Below, piece by piece: positions 44,223-64,000 of a DNA stretch of 64,000 nt. The notes beneath the pieces are model-generated. The model saw only the letters and a list, made by a program, of their open reading frames with translations, was not told the DNA's origin and ran no database searches. The position numbers and the translations under genes are program-made. Position 1 is the first letter of the stretch. Each line of letters opens with the position of its first letter. The stretch is taken from the NCBI GenBank assembly GCA_036925085.1, contig JAUPFP010000004.1, positions 6,398,329 to 6,462,328 on the forward strand, given 5' to 3'. Source of the stretch: Brachycybe producta. Lineage: Eukaryota > Arthropoda > Diplopoda > Playtdesmida > Andrognathidae.

Positions 44223-44458
44223 GAATTTCATTTTTGGACAATTTTTAGTATTCGTCATAGATTGGAGCTGTTAGCTGTTTTCACTACTTCAGTTTTTCAT
44301 CCATTCATCCCCTCAATCTTTCATCCCTTCATTCTTTCATGAATTTCATTTTTGGACAATTTTTAGTATTCTTCATAGATTGGAGCTGTTAGCTGTTTTC
44401 ACTACTTCATTCTTTCATCCATTCATCCCCTCATTCTTTCATCCCTTCATTCTTTCAT
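44223..44458 (+). repeat. 118-bp direct duplication at the edge of the satellite
   Basis: GAATTTCATTTTTGGACAAT starts at 44223 and 44341; both copies continue through GATTGGAGCTGTTAGCTG and end in TTCATCC(C/A)TTCATTC units. The duplication therefore includes the first satellite units. Confidence 0.88.
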
Positions 44459-45460
44459 GCCTTCATTCTCATTCCTTCATTCTCATCCCTTCATTCTTTC
44501 ATCCCTTCATTCTTTCATTTTTTCATTCTTTCATCCCTTCATTCTTTCATCCCTTCATTCGTTCATCCCATCATTCGTTCATCCCTTCATTTGTTCATCC
44601 CTTCATTTGTTCATCCCTTCATTTGTTCATTCTTTCATTTGTTCATCCCTTCATTTTATAATTCCTTCATTTTATAATCCCTTCATTTTATATTTCCTTC
44701 ATTCTTTCATCCTTTCATCCACTCATTTTTTCATCCCTTCATTTTTTATTCCTTCATCTTTTTATCCCTTCATCCTTTCATCCCTTCATTCCTTCATTCC
44801 TTCATTCCTTCAACCCTTCCTCCTTTCATCCTTTCATCCCTTCATTCCTTCAACCCTTCCTCCTTTCATCCTTTCATCCCTTCATTCCTTCATTCCTTCA
44901 TTCTTTCATTCCTTCAACCCTTCCTTCTTTCATCCCTTCCTCCTTTCATCCCTTCATTCATTCATCTCTTCATCCCTTCATCCTTTTACCCCTTTATTCA
45001 TTCATCCACTCATCCCTTCATTCTTTCATCCTTTCATTCCTTCATTCTTTCATTCCTTCATTCCTTCATTTTTTCATCCCTTCATTCCTTCATTTTTCAT
45101 CCCTTCATTCCTTCATCCCTTCATTCCTTCATTTTTTCATCCCTTCATTCCTTCATTTTTTCATCCCTTCATTCCTTCATTCTTTCATCCCTTCATTCCT
45201 TCATTTTTTCATCCCTTCATTCCTTCATCCTTTCATTCTTTCATCCCTTCATTCTTTCATTCCTTCATTTTTTCATTCCTTCATTCTTTCATTATTTCAT
45301 CCCATAATTCTTTCATTCTTTCATTTTTTCATTCCTTCATTCCTTCATCATTCAACCCTTCATCCCTTCATCCTTTCATCCCTTCATTCTTTCATCCCTT
45401 CATTTTTTCATCCATTGATCCATTGATCCATTCATTCTTTTCCATTCATTTCCATTCATT
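44284..45460 (+). repeat. Satellite block 1: diverged TTCAT(C/T)C(C/T) 8-mers
   Basis: Mixed TTCATCCC, TTCATTCC, TTCATTCT and TTCATTTT units with occasional TTATA interruptions. Open in the + frames because the units seldom make a stop codon, not because it encodes protein. Confidence 0.92.
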
Positions 45461-46530
45461 CATTGTTTCCTCCTTTCATCCATCCTCCTTTCCTCCTTTC
45501 TTCCATCCTCCTTTCCTCCTTTCTTCCATCCTCGTTTCCTCCTTTCTTTCATCCTCCTTTCCTCCTTTCATCCATCTTCCTTTCCTCTTTTCATCCATCC
45601 TCCTTTCCTCCTTTCATCCATCCTCCTTTCCTCCTTTCATCCATCCTCCTTTCCTCCTTTCATCCATCCTCCTTTCCTCTTTCATCCATCCTCCTTTCCT
45701 CCTTTCATCCATCCTCCTTTCCTCCTTTCATCCATCCTCCTTTCCTCCTTTCATCCATCCTCTTTTCCTCCTTTCATCCATCCTCCTTTCCTCCTTTCAT
45801 CCATCCTCCTTTCCTCCTTTCATCCATCCTCCTTTCCTCCTTTCATCCATCCTCCTTTCCTCCTTTCATCCATCCTCCTTTCCTCCTTTCATCCATCCTC
45901 CGTTCCTCCTTTCATCCATCCTCCGTTCCTCCTTTCATCCATCCTCCTTTCCTCCTTTCATCCATCCTCCTTTCCTCCTTTCATCCATCCTCCGTTCCTC
46001 CTTTCATCCATCCTCCGTTCCTCCTTTCATCCATCCTCCTTTCCTCCTTTCATCCAGCCTCCTTTCCTCCTTTCATCCATCCTCCTTTCCTCCTTTCATC
46101 CATCCTCCTTTCCTCCTTTCATCCATCCTCCTTTTCTCCTTTCATCCATTCTCCTTTCCTCCTTTCATCCATCCTCCTTTCCTCCTTTCATCCATCCTCC
46201 TTTCCTCCTTTCATCCATCCTCCTTTCCTCCTTTCATCCATCCTCCTTTCCTCCTTTCATCCATCCTCCTTTCCTCCTTTCATCCATCCTCCTTTCCTCC
46301 TTTCATCCATCCTCCTTTCCTCCTTTCATCCATCCTCCTTTCCTCCTTTCATCCATCCTCCTTTCCTCCTTTCATCCATCCTCCTTTCCTCCTTTCATCC
46401 ATCCTCCTTTCCTCCTTTCATCCATCCTCCTTTCCTCCTTTCATCCATCCTCCTTTCCTCCTTTCATCCATCCTCCTTTCCTCCTTTCATCCATCCTCCT
46501 TTCCTCCTTTCATCCATCTTTCTTTCCTCC
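45460..46530 (+). repeat. Satellite block 2: 23-bp unit
   Basis: About 46 units of CTTTCCTCCTTTCATCCATC + CTC, many identical and a few with CCG or TTC variants. 23 is not a multiple of 3, so the conceptual protein repeats every 23 residues. Confidence 0.93.
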
Positions 46531-47140
46531 TTTCATCCTTTCATCCTTTCATCCTTTCATCTTTTCATCTTTTCATCTTTTCATCTTTTCATCTTTTCAT
46601 CTTTTCATCTTTTCATCCTTTCATCCTTTCATCCTTTCATCCTTTCATCCTTTCATCTTTTCATCTTTTCATCTTTTCATCCTTTGATCCTTTCATCCTT
46701 TCATCCTTTTATCCTTTCATCCTTTCATCCTTTCATCCTTTCATTTTTTCATTTTTTCATTTTTTCATTTTTTCATCTTTTCATCTTTTCATCCTTTGAT
46801 CCTTTCATCCATCCTCCTTTCCTCCTTTCATCCATCTTCCTTTCCTACTTTCATCCTTTCATCCTTTCATCCTTTCATCCTTTCATCTTTTCATCTTTTC
46901 ATCTTTTCATCTTTTCATCCTTTCATCCTTTCATCCTTTCATCCTTTCATCTTTTCATCTTTTCATCTTTTCATCTTTTCATCTTTTCATCTTTTCATCC
47001 TTTCATCCTTTCATCCTTTCATCCTTTCATCCTTTCATCCTTTCATCCTTTCATTTTTTCATCCTTTCATCCTTTCATCCTTTCATCTTTTCATCTTTTC
47101 ATCTTTTCATCTTTTCATCCTTTCATCCTTTCATCCTTTC
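46530..47140 (+). repeat. Satellite block 3: CTTTCATC 8-mers
   Basis: Units alternate in runs between CTTTCATC and TTTTCATC, with a short return of the 23-bp unit at about 46805-46850. Confidence 0.92.
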
Positions 47141-47950
47141 ATCCCTTCATCCCTTCATCCCTTCATCCCTTCATCCCTTCATCCCTTCATCCCTTCATCC
47201 CTTCATCCCTTCATCCCTTCATCCCTTCATCCCTTCATCCCTTCATCCCTTCATCCCTTCATCCCTTCATCCCTTCATCCCTTCATCCCTTCATCCCTTC
47301 ATCCCTTCATCCCTTCATCCCTTCATCCCTTCATCCCTTCATCCCTTCATCCCTTCATCCCTTCATCCCTTCATCCCTTCATCCCTTCATCCCTTCATCC
47401 CTTCATCCCTTCATCCCTTCATCCCTTCATCCCTTCATCCCTTCATCCCTTCATCCCTTCATCCCTTCATCCCTTCATCCCTTCATCCCTTCATCCCTTC
47501 ATCCCTTCATCCCTTCATCCCTTCATCCCTTCATCCCTTCATCCCTTCATCCCTTCATCCCTTCATCCCTTCATCCCTTCATCCCTTCATCCCTTCATCC
47601 CTTCATCCCTTCATCCCTTCATCCCTTCATCCCTTCATCCCTTCATCCCTTCATCCCTTCATCCCTTCATCCCTTCATCCCTTCATCCCTTCATCCCTTC
47701 ATCCCTTCATCCCTTCATCCCTTCATCCCTTCATCCCTTCATCCCTTCATCCCTTCATCCCTTCATCCCTTCATCCCTTCATCCCTTCATCCCTTCATCC
47801 CTTCATCCCTTCATCCCTTCATCCCTTCATCCCTTCATCCCTTCATCCCTTCATCCCTTCATCCCTTCATCCCTTCATCCCTTCATCCCTTCATCCCTTC
47901 ATTCCTTCATCCCTTCATCCCTTCATCCCTTCATCCCTTCATCCCTTCAT
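47140..47950 (+). repeat. Satellite block 4: homogeneous CCCTTCAT array
   Basis: About 95 consecutive identical 8-mers up to 47900, one CATTCCTT interruption, then more. The most homogeneous part of the satellite. Confidence 0.95.
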
Positions 47951-48270
47951 TCCTTCATTCCTTCATTCCTTCATTCCTTCATTCCTTCATTCCTTCATTC
48001 CTTCATTCCTTCATTCCTTCATTCCTTCATTCCTTCATTCCTTCATTCCTTCATTCCTTCATTCCTTCATTCCTTCATTCCTTCATTCCTTCATTCCTTC
48101 ATTCCTTCATTCCTTCATTCCTTCATTCCTTCATTCCTTCATTCCTTCATTCCTTCATTCCTTCATTCCTTCATTCCTTCATTCCTTCATTCCTTCATTC
48201 CTTCATTCCTTCATTCCTTCATTCCTTCATTCCTTCATTCCTTCATTCCTTCATTCCTTCATTCCTTCAT
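47950..48270 (+). repeat. Satellite block 5: homogeneous CATTCCTT array
   Basis: About 40 identical 8-mers. Confidence 0.95.
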
Positions 48271-49625
48271 TTTATATTTCCTTCATTCTTTCATTCCTTC
48301 ATTTTATATTTCCTTCATTCTTTCATCCTTTCATCCACTCATTTTTTCATCCCTTCATTTTTTATTCCTTCATCTTTTTATCCCTTCCTCCTTTCATCCC
48401 TTCATTGCTTCATTCCTTCATTCCTTCAACCCTTCCTCCTTTCATCCTTTCATCCTTTCATTCCTTCATTCCTTCATTCTTTCATTCCTTCAACCCTTCA
48501 ACCCTTCCTCCTTTCATCCCTTCCTCCTTTCATCCCTTCATCCTTTCATCTCTTCATCCCTTCATTCATTCATCCACTCATCCCTTCATCCTTTTACCCC
48601 TTCATTCATTCATCCACTCATCCCTTCATTCTTTCATCCTTTCATTCCTTCATTCTTTCATTCCTTCATTCCTTCATTTTTTCATCCCTTCATTCCTTCA
48701 TTTTTTCATCCCTTCATTCCTTTTTTTTCATCCCTTCATTCCTTTTTTTTTCATCCCTTCATTCCTTCATTCCTTCATTTTTTCATCCCTTCATTCCTTC
48801 ATCCTTTCATTCTTTTATCCCTTCATTCTTTCATCCTTCATTCTTTCATTCCTTCATTTTTTCATTCTTTCATTATTTCATCCTATAATTCTTTCATTCT
48901 TTCATTTTTTCATTCCTTCATTCCTTCATCATTCAACCCTTCATCCCTTCATCCTTTCATCCCTTCATCTTTTCATCTCTTTATCCCTTCATTCTTTCAT
49001 CCATTGATCCATTGATCCATTCATTCTTTTCCATTCATTTCCATTCATTCATTCTTTCCTCCTTTCATCCATCCTCCTTTCCTCCTTTCTTCCATCCTTC
49101 TTTCTTCCATCCTCCTTTCCTCCTTTCTTCCATCCTCCTTTCCTCCTTTCATCCATCTTCCTTTCCTCTTTTCATCCATCCTCCTTTCCTCCTTTCATCC
49201 ATCTTCCTTTCCTCTTTTCATCCATCCTCCTTTCCTCCTTTCATCCATCCTCCTTTCCTCCTTTCATCCATCCTCCTTTCCTCCTTTCATCATCCTCCTT
49301 TCCTCCTTTCATCCATCCTCCTTTCATCCATCCTCCTTTCCTCCTTTCATCCATCCTCCTTTCCTCCTTTCATCCATCCTCCTTTTCCTCCTTTCATCCA
49401 TCCTCCTTTAATCCTTTCATCCATCCTCCGTTAATCCTTTCATCCATCCTCCTTTCCTCCTTTCATCCATCCTCCTTTCCTCCTTTCATTCATCCTCCTT
49501 TCCTCCTTTCATTCATCCTCCTTTAATCCTTTCTTTCATCCTCCTTTCCTCCTTTCATCCATCCTCCTTTCCTGCTTTCATCCATCCTCCTTTCCTCCTT
49601 TCATCCATCTTCCTTTCCTCCTTTC
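48270..49625 (+). repeat. Satellite block 6: duplicate of the 44680-45650 section
   Basis: It repeats the irregular section of block 1 (CATTTTATATTTCCTTCATT, CATCCACTCATTTTTTCATC, the double CCATTGATCCATTGATCCAT, TTCCATTCATTTCCATTCAT) and then 23-bp units. The offset is about 3590-3620 bp. Confidence 0.85.
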
Positions 49626-49890
49626 ATTCATCCTCTGTTCCTCCTTTCCTCCTTTCCTCCTTTCCTCCTTTCCTCCTTTCCTCCTTTCCTCCTTTCCTCC
49701 TTTCCTCTTTTCCTCCTTTCCTCTTTTCCTCCTTTCCTCCTTTTTTCCTTCCCCCTCCTTTCCTCCTTTCCTCCTTTCCTCCTTTCCTCCTTTCCTCCTT
49801 TCCTCCTTTCATCCATCCTCCTTTTCTCCTTTCCTCCTTTCCTCCTTTCCTCCTTTCCTCCTTTCCTCCTTTCCTCCTTCCTTTCATCCT
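49625..49890 (+). repeat. Satellite block 7: CCTCCTTT 8-mers
   Basis: About 30 units of CCTCCTTT, purely pyrimidine on the + strand apart from one CATCCATC interruption. Confidence 0.93.
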
Positions 49891-51400
49891 TTCCTTGTTC
49901 CTTTCATCCTTTCCTCCTTCCTTTCATCCTTTCCTCTTTTTCCTCCTTCCTTTCATCCTTTCATCCATCCTTTCGTCCATCCTTTCATCCTTTCATCCTT
50001 TCATCCTTTCATTCATCCTTTCATCCTTTCATCCTTTCATTCATCCTTTCATCCTTTCATTCATCCTTTCATCCTTTCATCCATCCTTAATTTTTTCATC
50101 CATCCTTTCATCCTTTCATCCATCCTTTCATCCTTTCATCCTTTCATCCATCTCCTCCTTCCTCCTTTCATCCTTCCTTTCATTTTTTCATCCGTCCTTT
50201 CATCCTTTCATCCATCCTTTCATCCTTTTATCTTTCCTTTCATCCTTTCATCCTTTCATCCTTTCATCCATCCTTTCATCCTTTCATCCATCCTTTCATC
50301 CTTTCATCCATCCTTTCATCCATCCTTCCATCCTTTCATCCATCCTTTCCTCCTTTCATTCATCCTCCTTTAATCCTTTCATCCATCCTCCTTTTCTCCT
50401 TTCATCCATCCTCCTTTCATCCTTTCATCCATCCTTTCATCCTTTCATCCATCCTTTCATCCATCCTTTCATTCTTTCATCCATCCTTTCCTCCTTTCAT
50501 TCATCCTCCTTTAATCCTTTCATCCATCCTCCCTTTTCTCCTTTCATCCATCCTCCTTTTCTCCTTTCATCCATCCTCCTTTCCTCCTTTCATCCATCCT
50601 CCTTTCCTCCTTTCATCTATCCTCCTTTCCTCCTTTCATCCTTCCTCTCATTTTTTCATCCGTCCTTTCATCCTTTCATCCGTCCTTTCATCCTTTTATC
50701 CTTCTTTTCATCCTTTCATCCATCCTTTCATCCATCCTTTCATCCATCCTTTCATCCATCCTTTCATCCATCCTTTCATCCATCCTTTCATCCATCCTTT
50801 CATCCATCCTTTCATCCATCCTTTCATCCATCCTTTCATCCATCCTTTCATCCATCCTTTCATCCATCCTTTCATCCTTTCATCCTTTCTTCCTTTCATC
50901 CATCCTTTCATCCTTTCATCCTTTCATCCATCCTTTCATCTTTTCATCCTTTCATCATTTCATCCATCCTTTCATCCATCCTTTCATCCATCCTTTCATC
51001 CATCCTTTCATCCATTCTTTCATCCATCCTTTCATCCATCCTTTCATCCATTCTTTCATCCATCCTTCATCCATCCTTTCATTCATCCTTTCATCCTTTC
51101 ATCCATCCTTTCATCCTTTCATCCATCTTTTCATCCTTTCATCCATCCTTTCATCCTTTCATCCTTTCATCCATCCTTTCATCCTTTCATCTTTTCATCC
51201 TTTCATCCTTTCATCCATCCTTTCATTCATACTTTCATCCATCCTTTCATCCATCCTTTCATCCTTTCATCCATCCTTTCATCCATCCTTTCATCCATCC
51301 TTTCATCCTTTCATCCATCCTTTCATCCTTTCATCCTTTCATCCATCCTTTCATCCTTTCATCCATCCTTTCATCCATCCATCTTTTCATCCATTCCTTT
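49890..51400 (+). repeat. Satellite block 8: CTTTCATC 8-mers mixed with 12-mers
   Basis: CATCCTTTCATC 12-mers form a clean run at 50710-50875, elsewhere mixed with 8-mers and 23-bp units. It stops at the assembly gap, so the true length is unknown. Confidence 0.92.
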
Positions 51401-51500: not shown

Positions 51501-52560
51501 GGAAGGGGAGAAAAAGGGGGGAAAAGGGGGGAAAAGGGAAAAAGGGGGGAAAGGGGGATAAGGGGGGGAAAAGGGGGGGAAAGGGGGGGAAGGGGAAAAA
51601 AGGGGGAAAAAGGGGGGGAAAGGGGGGGAAAGGGGGAAAAGGGGGAAAAGGGGGAAAAGGGGGAAAAGGGGAGAAAAGGGAGGAAAAGGGGGAAAAGGGG
51701 AGAAAAGGGAAAAAGGGGAAAATGGGGGGAAAGAGGGGGGAAAGAGGGAAATGGGAAAAAAGGGGAAAGGGGGAAAAAGGGAGAAAAGGGGAAAGGGGGG
51801 AAAAGGGGGGAAAAAGGGGGGAAAAGGGGGGAAAAGAGAGGAAAAGGGGGAAAATGAGAAAAAAGGGGGAAAAGGGGGGAAAAGGAGGAAATGAGAAAAA
51901 GGGAAAAAGGGGGAAAAGGGGGGAAAAAGAGGGGGAAAGGGGGGGGGAAAGGGGGGAAAAGGGGGAAAAAGGGGGGAAACGGGGGAAATGGGGGAAAGGG
52001 GGGAAAAGGGGGGGAAATGGGGAAACAGGGGAGAAAAAATGGAAAAGGGGGAAAAAGAGGGGGAAAAGGGAAAAAGGGGGAAAAGGGGGAAAAAGGGGGG
52101 GAAAGGGAAAAAGGGGGAGAAAGGGGGGAGAAAGGGGGAAAAAAAGGGGGAAAAAAGGGAGGGGAAAGGGGGAAAAGGGAGGAAAAGGGAGGAAAAGGAG
52201 AGAAAAGGGGGAAAAGGGGAGAAAAGAGAAAAAAGGGGGAAAAGGGGAAAGGGGAAAAGGGGAAAAGGGGGAAAAGAGGGAAAAGGAGGAAAGGGGGAAA
52301 TGGGGGAAAATGGAGGAAAAGGGGGAAAAGGAGGAAAAGGGGAAAAGGAGGAAAAAGGGGAAAAAGAGGAAATGGGGGAAATGGGGGAAAAGGGGGGAAA
52401 GGGGGGGGAAAGGGGGAAAAGGGGGTAAAAAGGGGGGAAAAGGGGGGAAAAGGGGGGAAAAGGGGGAAAAGGGAGGAAAAGGGGGAAAAGGGAGGAAAAG
52501 GGGGAAAAGGAGAGAAAAAGGGGAAAAGGGGAGAAAAGGGAAAAGGGGGAAAATGGGGGG
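51501..52560 (+). repeat. Polypurine satellite (GGGGGAAAA type)
   Basis: Variable GGGGGAAAA/GGGAGGAAAA 8- to 10-mers with only a few T and C in 1.06 kb. Frames on both strands (Gly/Lys-rich and Pro/Phe-rich) are artefacts; the two longest cross the gap. Confidence 0.93.
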
Positions 52561-53417
52561 AACCCTATAGACCTCCATTGCTTTAATATATGCTTTCATA
52601 TATCAAATAACCAACTTTTTTTCATTGTGCGCATGTGTACGCACATGTACACACTTGTGCGCATGTGTACGCACATGTACACACCGTGTGCGCATGTGTA
52701 CGCACATGTACACGCGTGTGCGCATGTGTACGCACATGTACACACGTGTGCGCATACGTATATAGATAATCACACATGTATGTACTCATGTACATGACAT
52801 AGTTACATGTGATGCGCATGCGTCATTCATTTGTAATAATATGGGTTTAAAATGAAAATACGTCACATGTATTCTAATATACAAAAATAATAGAACATAA
52901 AAAGGAACACCCCTCCTAAATAATAGAAAAGTCCCCCCTTTCGAATGCTACAACTGGAAAGAGGAAGAATCTCGATTTTTTGAAAAAAAAATTACGTTTT
53001 TAAAAAATCGAAATTTTATATATCGAATCGCTCTAAAATTCCAATTTTTTCCAGTTTCATCGTCAGAATGTTTACATCATTTTAAGTCTGATGACATTTT
53101 ATTGTAGGTGGCCCCGTTTTCGAGTTGTTCGACCCACTAAAAATTATGACCAAAAACTCAAAATTTGTTTCTAAAAAATTCATAAAAAAATAACCCCTGG
53201 GTAAAATTTTCTAATTTTTTGTCAGGAGCTTCATATTGACCCACGGAATCAAATAAAAAATACTGCATGTCTTTATCTCATTCCGTTCTTGAGTTGTTCG
53301 AGGAACTAAATCGGGTTCCGGACACACACACACACATACATACACACAGACATCCTTTTTTCCCCTTTTCTTGCATGATCCTATATACCTCCATTGCTCT
53401 TTAGAGCAATGGAGGTC
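52561..53417 (+). mobile_element. Dispersed element with minisatellite core, copy A
   Basis: Opens CCCTATAGACCTCCATTGCT; a short alternating purine/pyrimidine array follows at 52628-52750. Then comes a constant ~650-bp part (ACATAGTTACATGTGATGCG, GAACACCCCTCCTAAATAAT, GAGTTGTTCGAGGAACTAAA, a CA microsatellite). It closes with a hairpin CCTCCATTGCTC-TTTA-GAGCAATGGAGG. The closing arm is also the complement of the opening. Microsatellite core plus 3' hairpin recalls Helentron/DINE-type elements, but I cannot prove the class. No protein. Confidence 0.7.
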
Positions 53418-53420
53418 AAA

Positions 53421-53616
53421 AAGTTACAAAAATGGAGTAGAGAAAAATACAAAAAATGGAGTAGAAGTAGAAAAAAGTACAAAAAAATGGAGTAGAACTA
53501 AAGTAAAGTACAGAAAACTAAAGAGTGAATATAGAAAAATACAGGTAAAAGAAGTGGATGTAGGAAAAATACAGAAACTTAAAGTGTAGCAGAAAAAGTA
53601 ATAAACAAGGGATTCA
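53421..53616 (+). repeat. AAAATGGAGTAGAA-type degenerate repeat between the two elements
   Basis: Three to four units of AAAAAATGGAGTAGAA with AGTACA spacers, then A/G-rich DNA. The 72-codon frame at 53371 is repeat sequence. Confidence 0.5.
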
Positions 53617-53619
53617 AGG

Positions 53620-54925
53620 AACCCTATAGACCTCCATTGCTTTAATATATGCTTTCATATATCAAATAACCAACTTTTTTTCATTGTGCGCATGTGTATG
53701 CACATGTACACACGTGTGCGCATGTGTACGCACATGTGCGCATGTGTACGCACATGTGCGCATGTGTACGCACATGTGCGCATGTGTACGCACATGTACA
53801 CACGTGTGCGCATGTGTACGCACATGTGCACATGTGTACGCACATGTACACACGTGTGCGCATGTGTACGCACATGTACACACGTGTGCGCATGTGTACA
53901 CACGTGTGCGCATGTGTGCGCACGTGTACACACGTGTGCGCATGTGTACGCACGTGTACACACGTGTGCGCATGTGTACGCACATGTACACACGTGTGCG
54001 CATGTGTACGCACATGTACACACGTGTGCGCATGTGTACGCACATGTACACACGTGTGCGCATGTGTACGCACATGTACACACGTGTGCGCATGTGTACG
54101 CACATGTACACACTTGTGCACATGTGTACGCACATGTACACACGTGTGCGCATGTGTACGCACATGTACACACGTGTGCGCATGTGTATGCACATGTACA
54201 CACGTGTGCGCATGTGTACGCACATGTACACACATGTGCGCATGTGTACGCACATGTACACACGTGTGCGCATGTGTATATAGATAATCACACATGTATG
54301 TACTCTTGTACATGACATAGTTACATGTGATGCGCATGCGTCATTCATTTGTAATAATATGGGTTTAAAATGAAAATACGTCACATGTATAATAACAGAA
54401 CATAGAAAGGAACACCCCTCCTAAATAATAGAAAAGTCCCCCCTTTCGAATGCTACAACTGGAAAGAGGAAGAATCTCGATTTTTTGAAAAAAAAATTAC
54501 GTTTTTAAAAAATCGAAATTTTATATATCGAATCGCTCTAAAATTCCAATTTTTTCCAGTTTCATCGTCAGAATGTTTACATCATTTTAAGTCTGATGAC
54601 ATTTTATTGTAGGTGGCCCCGTTTTCGAGTTGTTCGACCCACTAAAAATTATGACCAAAAACTCAAAATTTGTTTCTAAAAAATTCATAAAAAAATAACC
54701 CCTGGGTAAAATTTTCTAATTTTTTGTCAGGAGCTTCATATTGACCCACGGAATCAAATAAAAAATACTGCATGTCTTTATCTCATTCCGTTCTTGAGTT
54801 GTTCGAGGAACTAAATCGGGTTCCGGACACACACACACATACACACAGACACACAGACATCCTTTTTTTCCCCTTTTCTTGCATGATCCTATATACCTCC
54901 ATTGCTCTTTAGAGCAATGGAGGTC
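53620..54925 (+). mobile_element. Dispersed element with minisatellite core, copy B
   Basis: Nearly identical to copy A outside the core, with the same opening and closing hairpin; preceded by AACAAGGGATTCAAGGAA, as in copy C. The core (53688-54276) is about five times longer than in copy A. It is built of 30-bp units GCGCATGTGT+ACGCACATGT+ACACACGTGT, strictly alternating purine and pyrimidine and close to self-complementary. That is why all six frames are open there; none of them is a gene. Confidence 0.75.
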
Positions 54926-55039
54926 AAAAACTGAGTGGAAATAGAAAAAAGTACGGTTGTAAAAAAATCATTTGAAATGATTTGGTTGTTAAACAACCAC
55001 ATTAGTGTAGTGCTCATCCAAACAGATATCTGGAAGCCC

Positions 55040-55139: not shown

Positions 55140-55842
55140 CGCTACAATACCCGGTAAATTTGAACGAACCAACTTACTGTCATCGGCTCCACAACGGGGA
55201 CAAAATCGTACCCGTAGCCGCCTCCACACGGTGATCCTTGGGATGTGTCGGCTCCCTGGAGCCACCCTCGATGAATACGGACAAAAACCACGCCGCCACG
55301 CCGAGAAGCCGACATGAGTATCAGCCGAAATAAAACGGTAAAAAGACGGTGCAGATCTTGACTACTGGAAAACCCACCCACCACGGTACTCCCCAAGAAA
55401 AGACACGGACACAAGTATAAATAAAAGACGAACAAAGTGTTTATTTACACTTACGACGGTGAAAGAAAAATAGTGTGGCTGGTCCATTTGACCAGCCAAA
55501 AGCACGTTATCTCGACACAAGGCCAACTGGCCTAAAGGCACAAGGCAGAACGGTGACTGTGGAGGTCTCCCTGACCTCCACCGACGATGTGGTCAGTCTC
55601 GAATCCAACAACCAACTGCCCCGATCCTGTGGCTGACCAGGCCACAGAAAACCTCCAGGCAACTCCACCTGGAGGGGACAGAGGTCACATCTGACCTCTC
55701 ACCCATTGACATCATGGTGAGAGGTCTGCTGGCACCAAAATGGTGTCCGTCCCAACAGCCTACTGCAGCTGTCAGGCAGACCACCATATTGAATTTGTCT
55801 GCTCTATCAAAAATTTGAAAATAGAGCAGACCAGGTTGCCAC
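55140..55842 (-). mobile_element. 3' LTR of the minus-strand Gypsy element
   Basis: Read on the minus strand it starts TGGCAACCTGGTCTGCTC just after a purine-rich tract (GGGAAGTTGAGAGGATTG), the expected polypurine tract. The same blocks in order are at 63339-64000: CATTTTGGTGCCAGCAGACC, CAATGGGTGAGAGGTCAGA, CCCTCCAGGTGGAGTTGCCT, GGGGAGTACCG. AATAAA occurs in the equivalent position. The far end is not sharply defined. Confidence 0.75.
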
Positions 55843-61242: not shown

Positions 61243-61350
61243 GGGTAGGGGAGAGAGAGCGAGAAACGTGGAGGAGAAAAAAGGGGGAGGGAGAAACTGA
61301 AATTGAAATGAAAGGAGTAAAATAGGAACAAACGACTCTTTCAAATATAA
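61243..61350 (+). repeat. Helitron-like fragment
   Basis: GGGGAGAGAGAGCGAGAAAC, the AAATTGAAATGAAAGGAGT block and AACAAACGAC followed by TTTCAAATATAA match 62045-62180. Both ends missing. Confidence 0.65.
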
Positions 61351-61363
61351 CAAGGGATTCAAG

Positions 61364-61892
61364 GAACCCTATAGACCTCCATTGCTTTAATATATGCTTT
61401 CATATATCAAATAACCAACTTTGTTCATTGTTACATGTGTGCGTATGAGTATGCACATGAACACACGTGCACACATGCATATGCACATTTACACACGTGC
61501 ACATGCGTATGCACATTTACACATGTGCATGCATGTGCGCACACATTAATGCATGTGCGCACATGTGTACATACATTAATGCACGTGCGCACATGTGTAT
61601 GCACATTAATGCATGTGTGCACATGTGCACGCACATGTAGACACTTGTGCGCATGTGGACGCACATGTAGACACTTGTGCACATGTGGACGCACATGTAC
61701 ACACATGTACACACTTGTGTGCATGTGTACGCACATGTACACACGTGTGCGCATGTGTATATAGATAAACACACATGTATGTACTCATGTACATGACATA
61801 GTTACATGTGATGCGCATGCGTCATTCATTTGTAATAATATGGGTTTAAAATGAAAATACGTCACATGTATTCTAATATTATATATATAATA
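61364..61892 (+). mobile_element. Dispersed element with minisatellite core, copy C (truncated)
   Basis: It has the same opening as copy B (GGGATTCAAGGAACCC TATAGACC) and a diverged alternating purine/pyrimidine core at 61432-61765, then ACATAGTTACATGTGATGCG up to CACATGTATTCTAATAT. The constant part is cut off where the Helitron-like copy 3 begins. Confidence 0.7.
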
Positions 61893-63338: not shown

Positions 63339-64000
63339 TGCGGCAACCTGGTCTGCTCAATCAAATTTTTGATTGAGCAGACGAACTCCATATGGTGATC
63401 TGCCCGACAGCATATAGTACGCTGTTAGGTCAGACGCCATTTTGGTGCCAGCAGACCTCTCACCATTGGAGTCAATGGGTGAGAGGTCAGAAGTGACCAT
63501 TGCCCCCTCCAGGTGGAGTTGCCTGGAGGTTTCAATGGCTTGGTCAGCCATTGAATCTGGGCAGTGTGTTGTAGGCAATTGACTGTGTAAGATCTTGATG
63601 CTGGAGGCCAGGGTGGCCTCCATTGTTTCTTTGTTTGGATCTTCTTTTGTTTTGGTTTGCCTTTTGGCCTGATGGCCTTATTAATTCATGGGGGCTTGGC
63701 TGGTTGAATTTAACCAGCCAAGTTGTGTGCATTAAGTAATACCACTGCCTTTAATCATTGTAAGTGAATAAACATACTCTTTTATTTTAACCTACTTTGG
63801 TGTCATGTATTTCTTTGGGAGTACCGCGGGGTGGGAGGGGAATCAACGTGATTTCCATCTTCCGTCTCCATCATATTGTCGGCCGGGGCTTACATCGGCT
63901 CACGGTGATAGGTCTCACCGCGATATTCTCGTTGTGGCGGCAGATCGGCCGTTGTGTCCGGCGAGGGGACTCCTAGAGAGCTGATGTAGACCCACGTCAC
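63339..64000 (+). mobile_element. LTR of the 55140-60830 Gypsy family, runs to the window edge
   Basis: Starts TGCGGCAACCTGGTCTGCTC and follows the 3' LTR at 55842-55140 block by block in opposite orientation. AATAAA is at 63767, then GGGAGTACCGCGGGGTGGG. It is either a solo LTR or the 5' LTR of an element beyond the window. Small minus frames at 63357-63732 are not genes. Confidence 0.75.

Follow-up and report, generated by a model that had tools for sequence, protein, structure and literature searches.

Helentron-type rolling-circle elements that are non-autonomous and non-coding (HINEs) share a recognizable layout, which is described for several animals in the sections of two reports on which we draw throughout (PMC4067079; PMC7492417). 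The DINE-1 and HINE elements of Drosophila, a mite and Culex carry subTIRs of 12-15 bp at both ends, a 5' inverted repeat, a microsatellite, central repeats and a 3' palindrome or stem-loop; they insert into T-runs or other T-rich or TT sites, flanked on both sides by two or more T's, with an unaltered target and no clear TSD, and their copies outnumber their coding partners (PMC4067079). In the mite the 3' subTIR lies 38-60 nt and the palindrome 8-35 nt from the end. According to the same sections, elements of this type were formerly classed as MITEs, and an S in the Rep motif marks Helentrons (PMC4067079). Cg_HINE of the Pacific oyster has a left flank with subTIR, inverted repeat and GTCY-type microsatellite, a right flank of ~60 bp with subTIR and palindrome, and between them an array of variable copy number, built of 140-180 bp monomers and mostly holding no more than 5 copies (PMC7492417). 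Pearl of oyster and ark (~160-bp repeats), MgE of mussel and DTC84 of Donax, compared here by description, are short satellite-like arrays in HINE-like flanks (PMC7492417). The HINE layout with central arrays is known already; what is unusual here is an alternating minisatellite as the core, and no HINE with such a core was found in the portions of the literature on Helentrons and Helitrons, tandem repeats and Z-DNA that were covered.

The locus lies in a window of 64,000 nucleotides (the whole stretch of DNA that was analysed) from the Brachycybe producta assembly GCA_036925085.1, contig JAUPFP010000004.1. Three copies of the element, called A, B and C, occur in this window, and the repeat array of copy B is very probably the central tandem-repeat array of a HINE lying on the minus strand. 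This assignment is based on the layout, on insertion into A/T-runs, on the hundreds of dispersed ends in the genome and on the stepwise change of the array between identical flanks. The features are as follows.

53604..54925, minus strand (sense 5' end at 54925): copy B, a full-length HINE-like element (36 aligned rows and the paralogous empty sites of sister copies)
54926..54930, no strand: target A-run at the insertion site (of 49 copies, 45 have at least 5 A's following the element and 4 have 2)
54913..54925, minus strand: sense 5' subTIR GACCTCCATTGCT, 13 bp (sequence; exact in 46 of the 51 copies having the 5' end)
54895..54924, minus strand: sense 5' hairpin, subTIR plus complementary inverted repeat, stem of 13-14 bp (sequence and fold; intact in 44 of 51)
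54827..54859, minus strand: GT/GTCT-type microsatellite of the sense left flank (TRF and sequence)
54283..54826, minus strand: unique left-flank body (common to the aligned copies)
53685..54282, minus strand: central tandem-repeat core, 598 bp (TRF and alternation scan)
53629..53641, minus strand: sense 3' subTIR AGCAATGGAGGTC, which is exactly the 5' subTIR in reverse complement (present without change in 45 of 51)
53608..53625, minus strand: sense 3' palindrome AGGGTTCcttGAATCCCT, which contains a single bulge and lies 4 nt inside the sense 3' terminus (44 of 51 copies have it unchanged)
52559..53417, minus strand: copy A, with a 139-bp core at 52626-52764 (sequence and alignment)
61349..61879, minus strand: copy C, diverged, with a 331-bp core at 61433-61763 and 28 breaks (sequence and alignment)

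The ends of the element are sharp in 36 aligned rows (a few copies are repeated by overlapping loci), and on the plus strand they read AACAAGGGATTC... at 53604 and ...GGAGGTC at 54925. Along the minus strand, a T-run is followed by the 5' subTIR, its inverted repeat, the GT/GTCT microsatellite, the unique body and the central repeats, after which come a right flank of ~80 bp with the 3' subTIR, then the 3' palindrome and finally TT. The element thus resembles the DINE-1 and HINE elements in its subTIRs (13 bp, as in DINE-1), 5' inverted repeat, microsatellite, central repeats, 3' palindrome, insertion into T-runs and excess of copies over coding partners, and resembles Cg_HINE in the composition of both flanks and the variable central array. 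It differs from the mite elements in that its subTIR (25 nt) and palindrome (4 nt) lie nearer to the sense 3' end. The core sets it apart from both groups, being a 10/30-bp alternating minisatellite of 106-1103 bp instead of an array of 140-180 bp monomers; the likeness considered here is one of layout, and the coding partner is a candidate only. The 5' hairpin folds far more stably than expected (z -5.65; none of 200 shuffles was equally stable), while structural support for the 71-nt sense 3' end is moderate (z -1.91; 8 of 200 shuffles equally stable). Six ORFs of at least 100 aa are listed within 53604-54925, all of which span the core and none of which is confined to the unique flanks, in line with the lack of coding capacity in HINEs. 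Copy A has lost the last bases of its sense 3' terminus, where it adjoins a purine-rich array, and copy C is without the sense 5' half. A canonical Helitron was also considered; the 5' TC, the 3' CTRR and the insertion between A and T of such elements are not found here, and the sense ends, a T-run then GACCTCC... and ...CCCTTGTT, do not fit one.

A search of the genome (295 Mb, 442 contigs) returned 321 matches to a 50-bp pattern of the hairpin end with at most 2 mismatches and 2774 matches to the 30-bp unit with at most 1 mismatch, while reversed-pattern controls for the hairpin end and the unit returned none. These numerous copies bear out the earlier placement of the array inside a mobile-like element. 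All of the 100 hairpin-end matches listed (of 321) are exact, and this exactness among the listed matches suggests that the family is young; the element is common in the genome and probably recently active. Among the first 100 unit matches listed, which form 23 array clusters, an exact terminus is listed within 2 kb of 16 clusters and none is listed for the other 7. The 30-bp unit had no match in viral contigs or in prokaryote genomes, and the 3' end had none in viral contigs. A flank search for allelic copies of one insertion (L007) returned only that locus itself and repeats. At several loci (L008, L011, L013, L021 and L026) copies often stand head-to-tail or face-to-face within 1-2 kb of each other, some of them nested.

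Insertion sites were evaluated in the 49 copies with both ends, which have 2-6 plus-strand A's before the element and 2-7 after it. For 17 of the 49, a paralogous empty site is present at another locus (only sites at another locus were counted, so that two L008 sites, found at their own locus only, are left out). Relative to these empty sites, 8 of the 17 copies display a clear modal gain of two A's, with the aligned flanks otherwise joined unchanged; for one of the copies, 54 of 63 related sites show the two-A gain. In the other 9 copies the gain is inconsistent among related sites or has another value, ranging from -1 to +8, the +8 value (L011) being a doubtful one from a single site. Several copies (L028-, L026- and L026+) are inserted within other family members, at the family's own A-runs. 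Since the insertions lie in A-runs, a 2-bp AA duplication is indistinguishable from A's borne by the element, and the two-A gain is perhaps element-borne; in the other respects the sites agree with the HINE pattern of at least two T's on each side and an unchanged target.

A candidate for the autonomous partner was sought among the 19 genome matches to the Rep domain PF14214. The motif RGLPHAH at L031-L035 is of Helitron type and lacks the Helentron mark, and these loci were rejected as the partner, while RGSPHAH (L042) and RGSCHVH (L040) carry the S. Contig C86 holds a PF14214 Rep and a PIF1 helicase above the cut-offs and an Exo_endo_phos_2 domain below its cut-off, in pieces with frame breaks, and ~6 kb beyond the last codon a weakly RPA-like ORF (PF08646, below cut-off). 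Some 620-670 bp beyond this ORF, 52 bp match the sense 3' end of the element at 98%. That end is present twice on C86, facing, on both sides of the RPA-like segment; the 2.5-kb segment itself (L077 1128-3614) is an observation in its own right, a weakly RPA-like ORF enclosed by facing HINE 3' ends. Its homologue on C3 is oriented opposite to Rep and is without those ends. At C86, the 3 kb examined upstream contained no 5' hairpin end, and no match to the 3' end rose above shuffled scores in the stretches of Helentron loci examined on C3, C1 and C4. The search covered parts of the Helentron-type copies on C4, C3, C1 and C86, reaching some of their 3' limits, and within those parts no complete autonomous partner carrying both ends turned up; the C86 neighbourhood is a candidate link to the element only. 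Two Helentron helicase copies on C9 (C9:9393-10019 and C9:37576-38202) are 28 kb apart with identical scores and perhaps reflect a recent duplication.

The core of copy B is an array of 30-bp units, each made of three 10-bp subunits. The original prediction had described a ~590 bp minisatellite of such units; the array itself is confirmed, and its extent is corrected to 53685-54282 (598 bp), of which TRF reports 53685-54278 as 20.5 copies of TGTGCGCATGTGTACGCACATGTACACACG. Alternation of purine and pyrimidine had been claimed to run without a break, which is not the case: the core consists of alternating runs of 429 and 168 bp interrupted by a single defect, CTT at 54113-54115, and the core of copy C is only 91.5% alternating. 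By comparison, no alternating run exceeded 18 bp when the window was simulated 100 times with a Markov model. The three cores in the window measure 139, 598 and 331 bp with 3, 2 and 28 breaks (A, B and C, respectively; the edges of the copy C core were placed by eye), so that the predicted wide difference in length stands while the predicted values of about 120, 590 and 330 bp are revised. The flanks of copies A and B are near-identical, as had been stated, with 99.77% identity over 440 bp. The 30-bp consensus unit splits into the 10-mers GCGCATGTGT, ACGCACATGT and ACACACGTGT. When each copy was read in a single phase, 1932 10-mers of 126 different kinds were obtained; these three are the most frequent, and by reading they differ from one another by transitions only.

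Core length was compared among copies collected by their flanks, as the original prediction had proposed, and the prediction of rapid length change relative to the flanks was upheld. The 53 distinct copies measured come from 50 loci and the window; the loci are the 30 best matches to the copy B flank and 20 chosen from the exact termini listed for contigs C1 and C2, a choice by which the sample leans to young copies. No counted copy derives from L027, from L069 or from the short-core copy of L011, and L001 and L004 duplicate the window. Cores range from 106 to 1103 bp with a median of 318. Their lengths equal 8 mod 10 in 31 of 53 copies and 18 mod 30 in 22 of 53, which indicates that length moves in steps of 10 or 30 bp. 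One pair of copies with no differences in 561 flank bases has cores of 139 and 378 bp, and another with none in 562 has cores of 318 and 378 bp. Over 26 pairs less than 0.5% apart, which share copies and are non-independent, the median difference in core length is 140 bp and 65% of the differences are multiples of 10. Array-specific blocks of 10-mers were recognized ('aed' repeats in L021- and L017-, 'abt' in L065), and the share of CTTG units is uneven among 38 copies (chi2 249, df 37); both fit block duplication and loss.

Strictness of alternation varies between copies. It reaches at least 97% in 28 of the 53 arrays, with a longest unbroken run of 779 bp (L065), and falls below 97% in 25, which shows that strict alternation is not required for mobility. 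The main break is the CTTG subunit, which accounts for 213 of 329 transversions in the group below 97%. Across the 50 copies used for flank analyses (3 of the 53, with odd body length, were left out), the alternating fraction decreases with flank divergence (Spearman -0.73, n=50, the points being non-independent through common descent). The midpoint-rooted flank tree is poorly resolved (of its 47 inner branches, 29 are open); in it, broken arrays make up the deep rows and a set of 14 rows, and the other 32 rows comprise 27 clean arrays and 5 broken ones (L056, L011, L008, L021- and L017-). Strict alternation may be a recent state, and regularly broken arrays exist among young copies too.

Hairpin potential of the cores was evaluated by folding, and their Z-DNA potential was estimated with energy values reportedly from Ho and co-workers. 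On this estimate the unit has a Z-energy of 1.34 kcal per dinucleotide versus 1.30 for (CA)n, and the three cores are the only islands of the window below 1.8 kcal per dinucleotide. The array resembles (CA)n and other Z-prone microsatellites in its alternation and in its similar estimated B-Z energy, and differs in being a transposon-borne 10/30-bp unit with mixed CG, CA, TG and TA steps. Hairpin energy of the core is large, -43 to -44 kcal/mol per 120 nt, at z ~-0.6 relative to dinucleotide shuffles, while a piece of the flank taken for comparison lies at z -2.68 below its own shuffles. The unit had been called nearly self-complementary, but its 22 of 30 pairing positions at the best rotation are ordinary beside a mean of 22.1 in random alternating 30-mers of the same composition. 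A special cruciform potential was accordingly dropped, the three core pieces equalling dinucleotide shuffles and the self-complementarity equalling that of random alternating 30-mers, and an exceptional Z-propensity was dropped at the (CA)n level given by these energy values. Folding and Z-energy show nothing beyond alternation and composition. Of the proposal that the core favours Z-form and cruciform structures, the part that survives is that the window's only Z-prone islands are these cores; the (CA)n-like Z level, the ordinary hairpin energy and the 25 of 53 broken arrays weaken the rest, leaving the structural idea possible and not special. It appears that the Z-DNA-friendly pattern comes with the repeat unit as a by-product and is not a requirement.

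Other readings of these data were weighed against the HINE assignment. The 13-bp inverted repeats near the ends, both exact in 42 of 51 copies, could be the transposase sites of a MITE-like cut-and-paste transposon with the 2-bp AA as its TSD, and the modal two-A gain in 8 of 17 copies would suit such an origin. The ends are asymmetric, though, with a hairpin at one and a subTIR plus separate palindrome at the other; the insertion into A/T-runs and the feature-by-feature agreement with HINE layout (in the sections of PMC4067079 and PMC7492417 cited above), the presence of Helentron-type genes in the genome, one neighbourhood of which (C86) has the same 3' end, and the former filing of such elements as MITEs (PMC4067079, same sections) all speak for a HINE, and we regard a cut-and-paste origin as very unlikely. 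It is more improbable still that the core lengths are artefacts of assembly. Assembly errors are known to arise in tandem arrays and the lengths are those of the assembly, but their quantization in 10- and 30-bp steps over 53 copies argues against random error, ordered variant blocks are unexpected from random collapse, and 28 of the 30 best flank-match loci lie on contigs of at least 1.7 Mb.

Within the HINE assignment, the alternation itself might be maintained, Z-DNA or hairpins aiding copying, integration or escape from silencing and units that break the pattern being lost. Copies with less diverged flanks do have stricter alternation, the three commonest 10-mers differ by transitions only, the cores are the window's only Z-prone islands, and core variants are richer in transitions (261:133, transitions to transversions) than flank singletons (87:121). 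Mosaic units and the sorting of copies by alternation itself confound the last comparison. For the same reasons, a circular grouping and common transitions that are partly mosaic 10-mers, selection on alternation as read from these counts was set aside; core variants seen only once (9 transitions to 11 transversions) resemble the flank singletons. Moreover, many units in the 14-row group are the alternation-breaking CTTG (20 of 21 in L026+, but 17 of 55 in L018), which has also expanded in copies of the mostly clean star (L056, L011, L021-, L017-), and neither hairpin energy nor Z-energy departs from dinucleotide shuffles and (CA)n, respectively. Maintenance of alternation is therefore very unlikely. 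A stronger form, in which the array is a 'drive' sequence and rolling-circle copying favours its perfectly alternating units, prone to Z-DNA or hairpins, would have arrays evolving from ~90-95% alternation in the deepest lineages of the sample to runs without a break, reaching 779 bp, in young copies; selection would then act on the transposon for a core of non-B DNA, and we consider this form a shade less credible than simple maintenance.

For the HINE-borne array, a mechanism can be proposed from the family to which it is assigned. Helentron proteins (Rep, PIF1 helicase and endonuclease) would insert single-stranded DNA copies of the element at T-rich sites. Slippage or unequal exchange, either while the element is copied or later, may add 10-bp subunits to the array and remove them, and local homogenisation would act on each array. 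Strict alternation would then follow from this homogenisation and from the founder unit, a 10-mer (RCGCAYRTGT-like) whose three most frequent descendants are separated by transitions alone. The 53 measured copies (of 321 end matches) form a natural series in which flanks date the copies and 10-mer 'barcodes' record array changes, making the rate of minisatellite change in a rolling-circle-type transposon measurable against a substitution clock. Hundreds of base pairs of perfectly alternating DNA are able to spread in an animal genome by means of a transposon, and claims about Z-DNA in alternating DNA can be tested against sister copies with regular breaks.

Several further sequences were noted. 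A 7-kb pyrimidine-rich (CTTCATCC)n array at 44405-51396, containing some A's too, has a GC skew near -1, and ~100 bp after it a 1-kb purine-rich (AAGGGGG)n array occupies 51503-52562, adjoining copy A at its cut-off sense 3' terminus. Inverted repeat arms at 55649-55818 and 63361-63532 are 88-94% complementary and ~7.5 kb apart; the GC-richer stretch between them includes copy C and may be a larger mobile element. AGR codons at COX1 positions where Ser is conserved point to the invertebrate mitochondrial code. On long contigs, COX1-like sequences at C1:12697416-12698753 (near full length, with one in-frame TAA) and C17:4027703-4029047 are probably nuclear copies of mitochondrial DNA.
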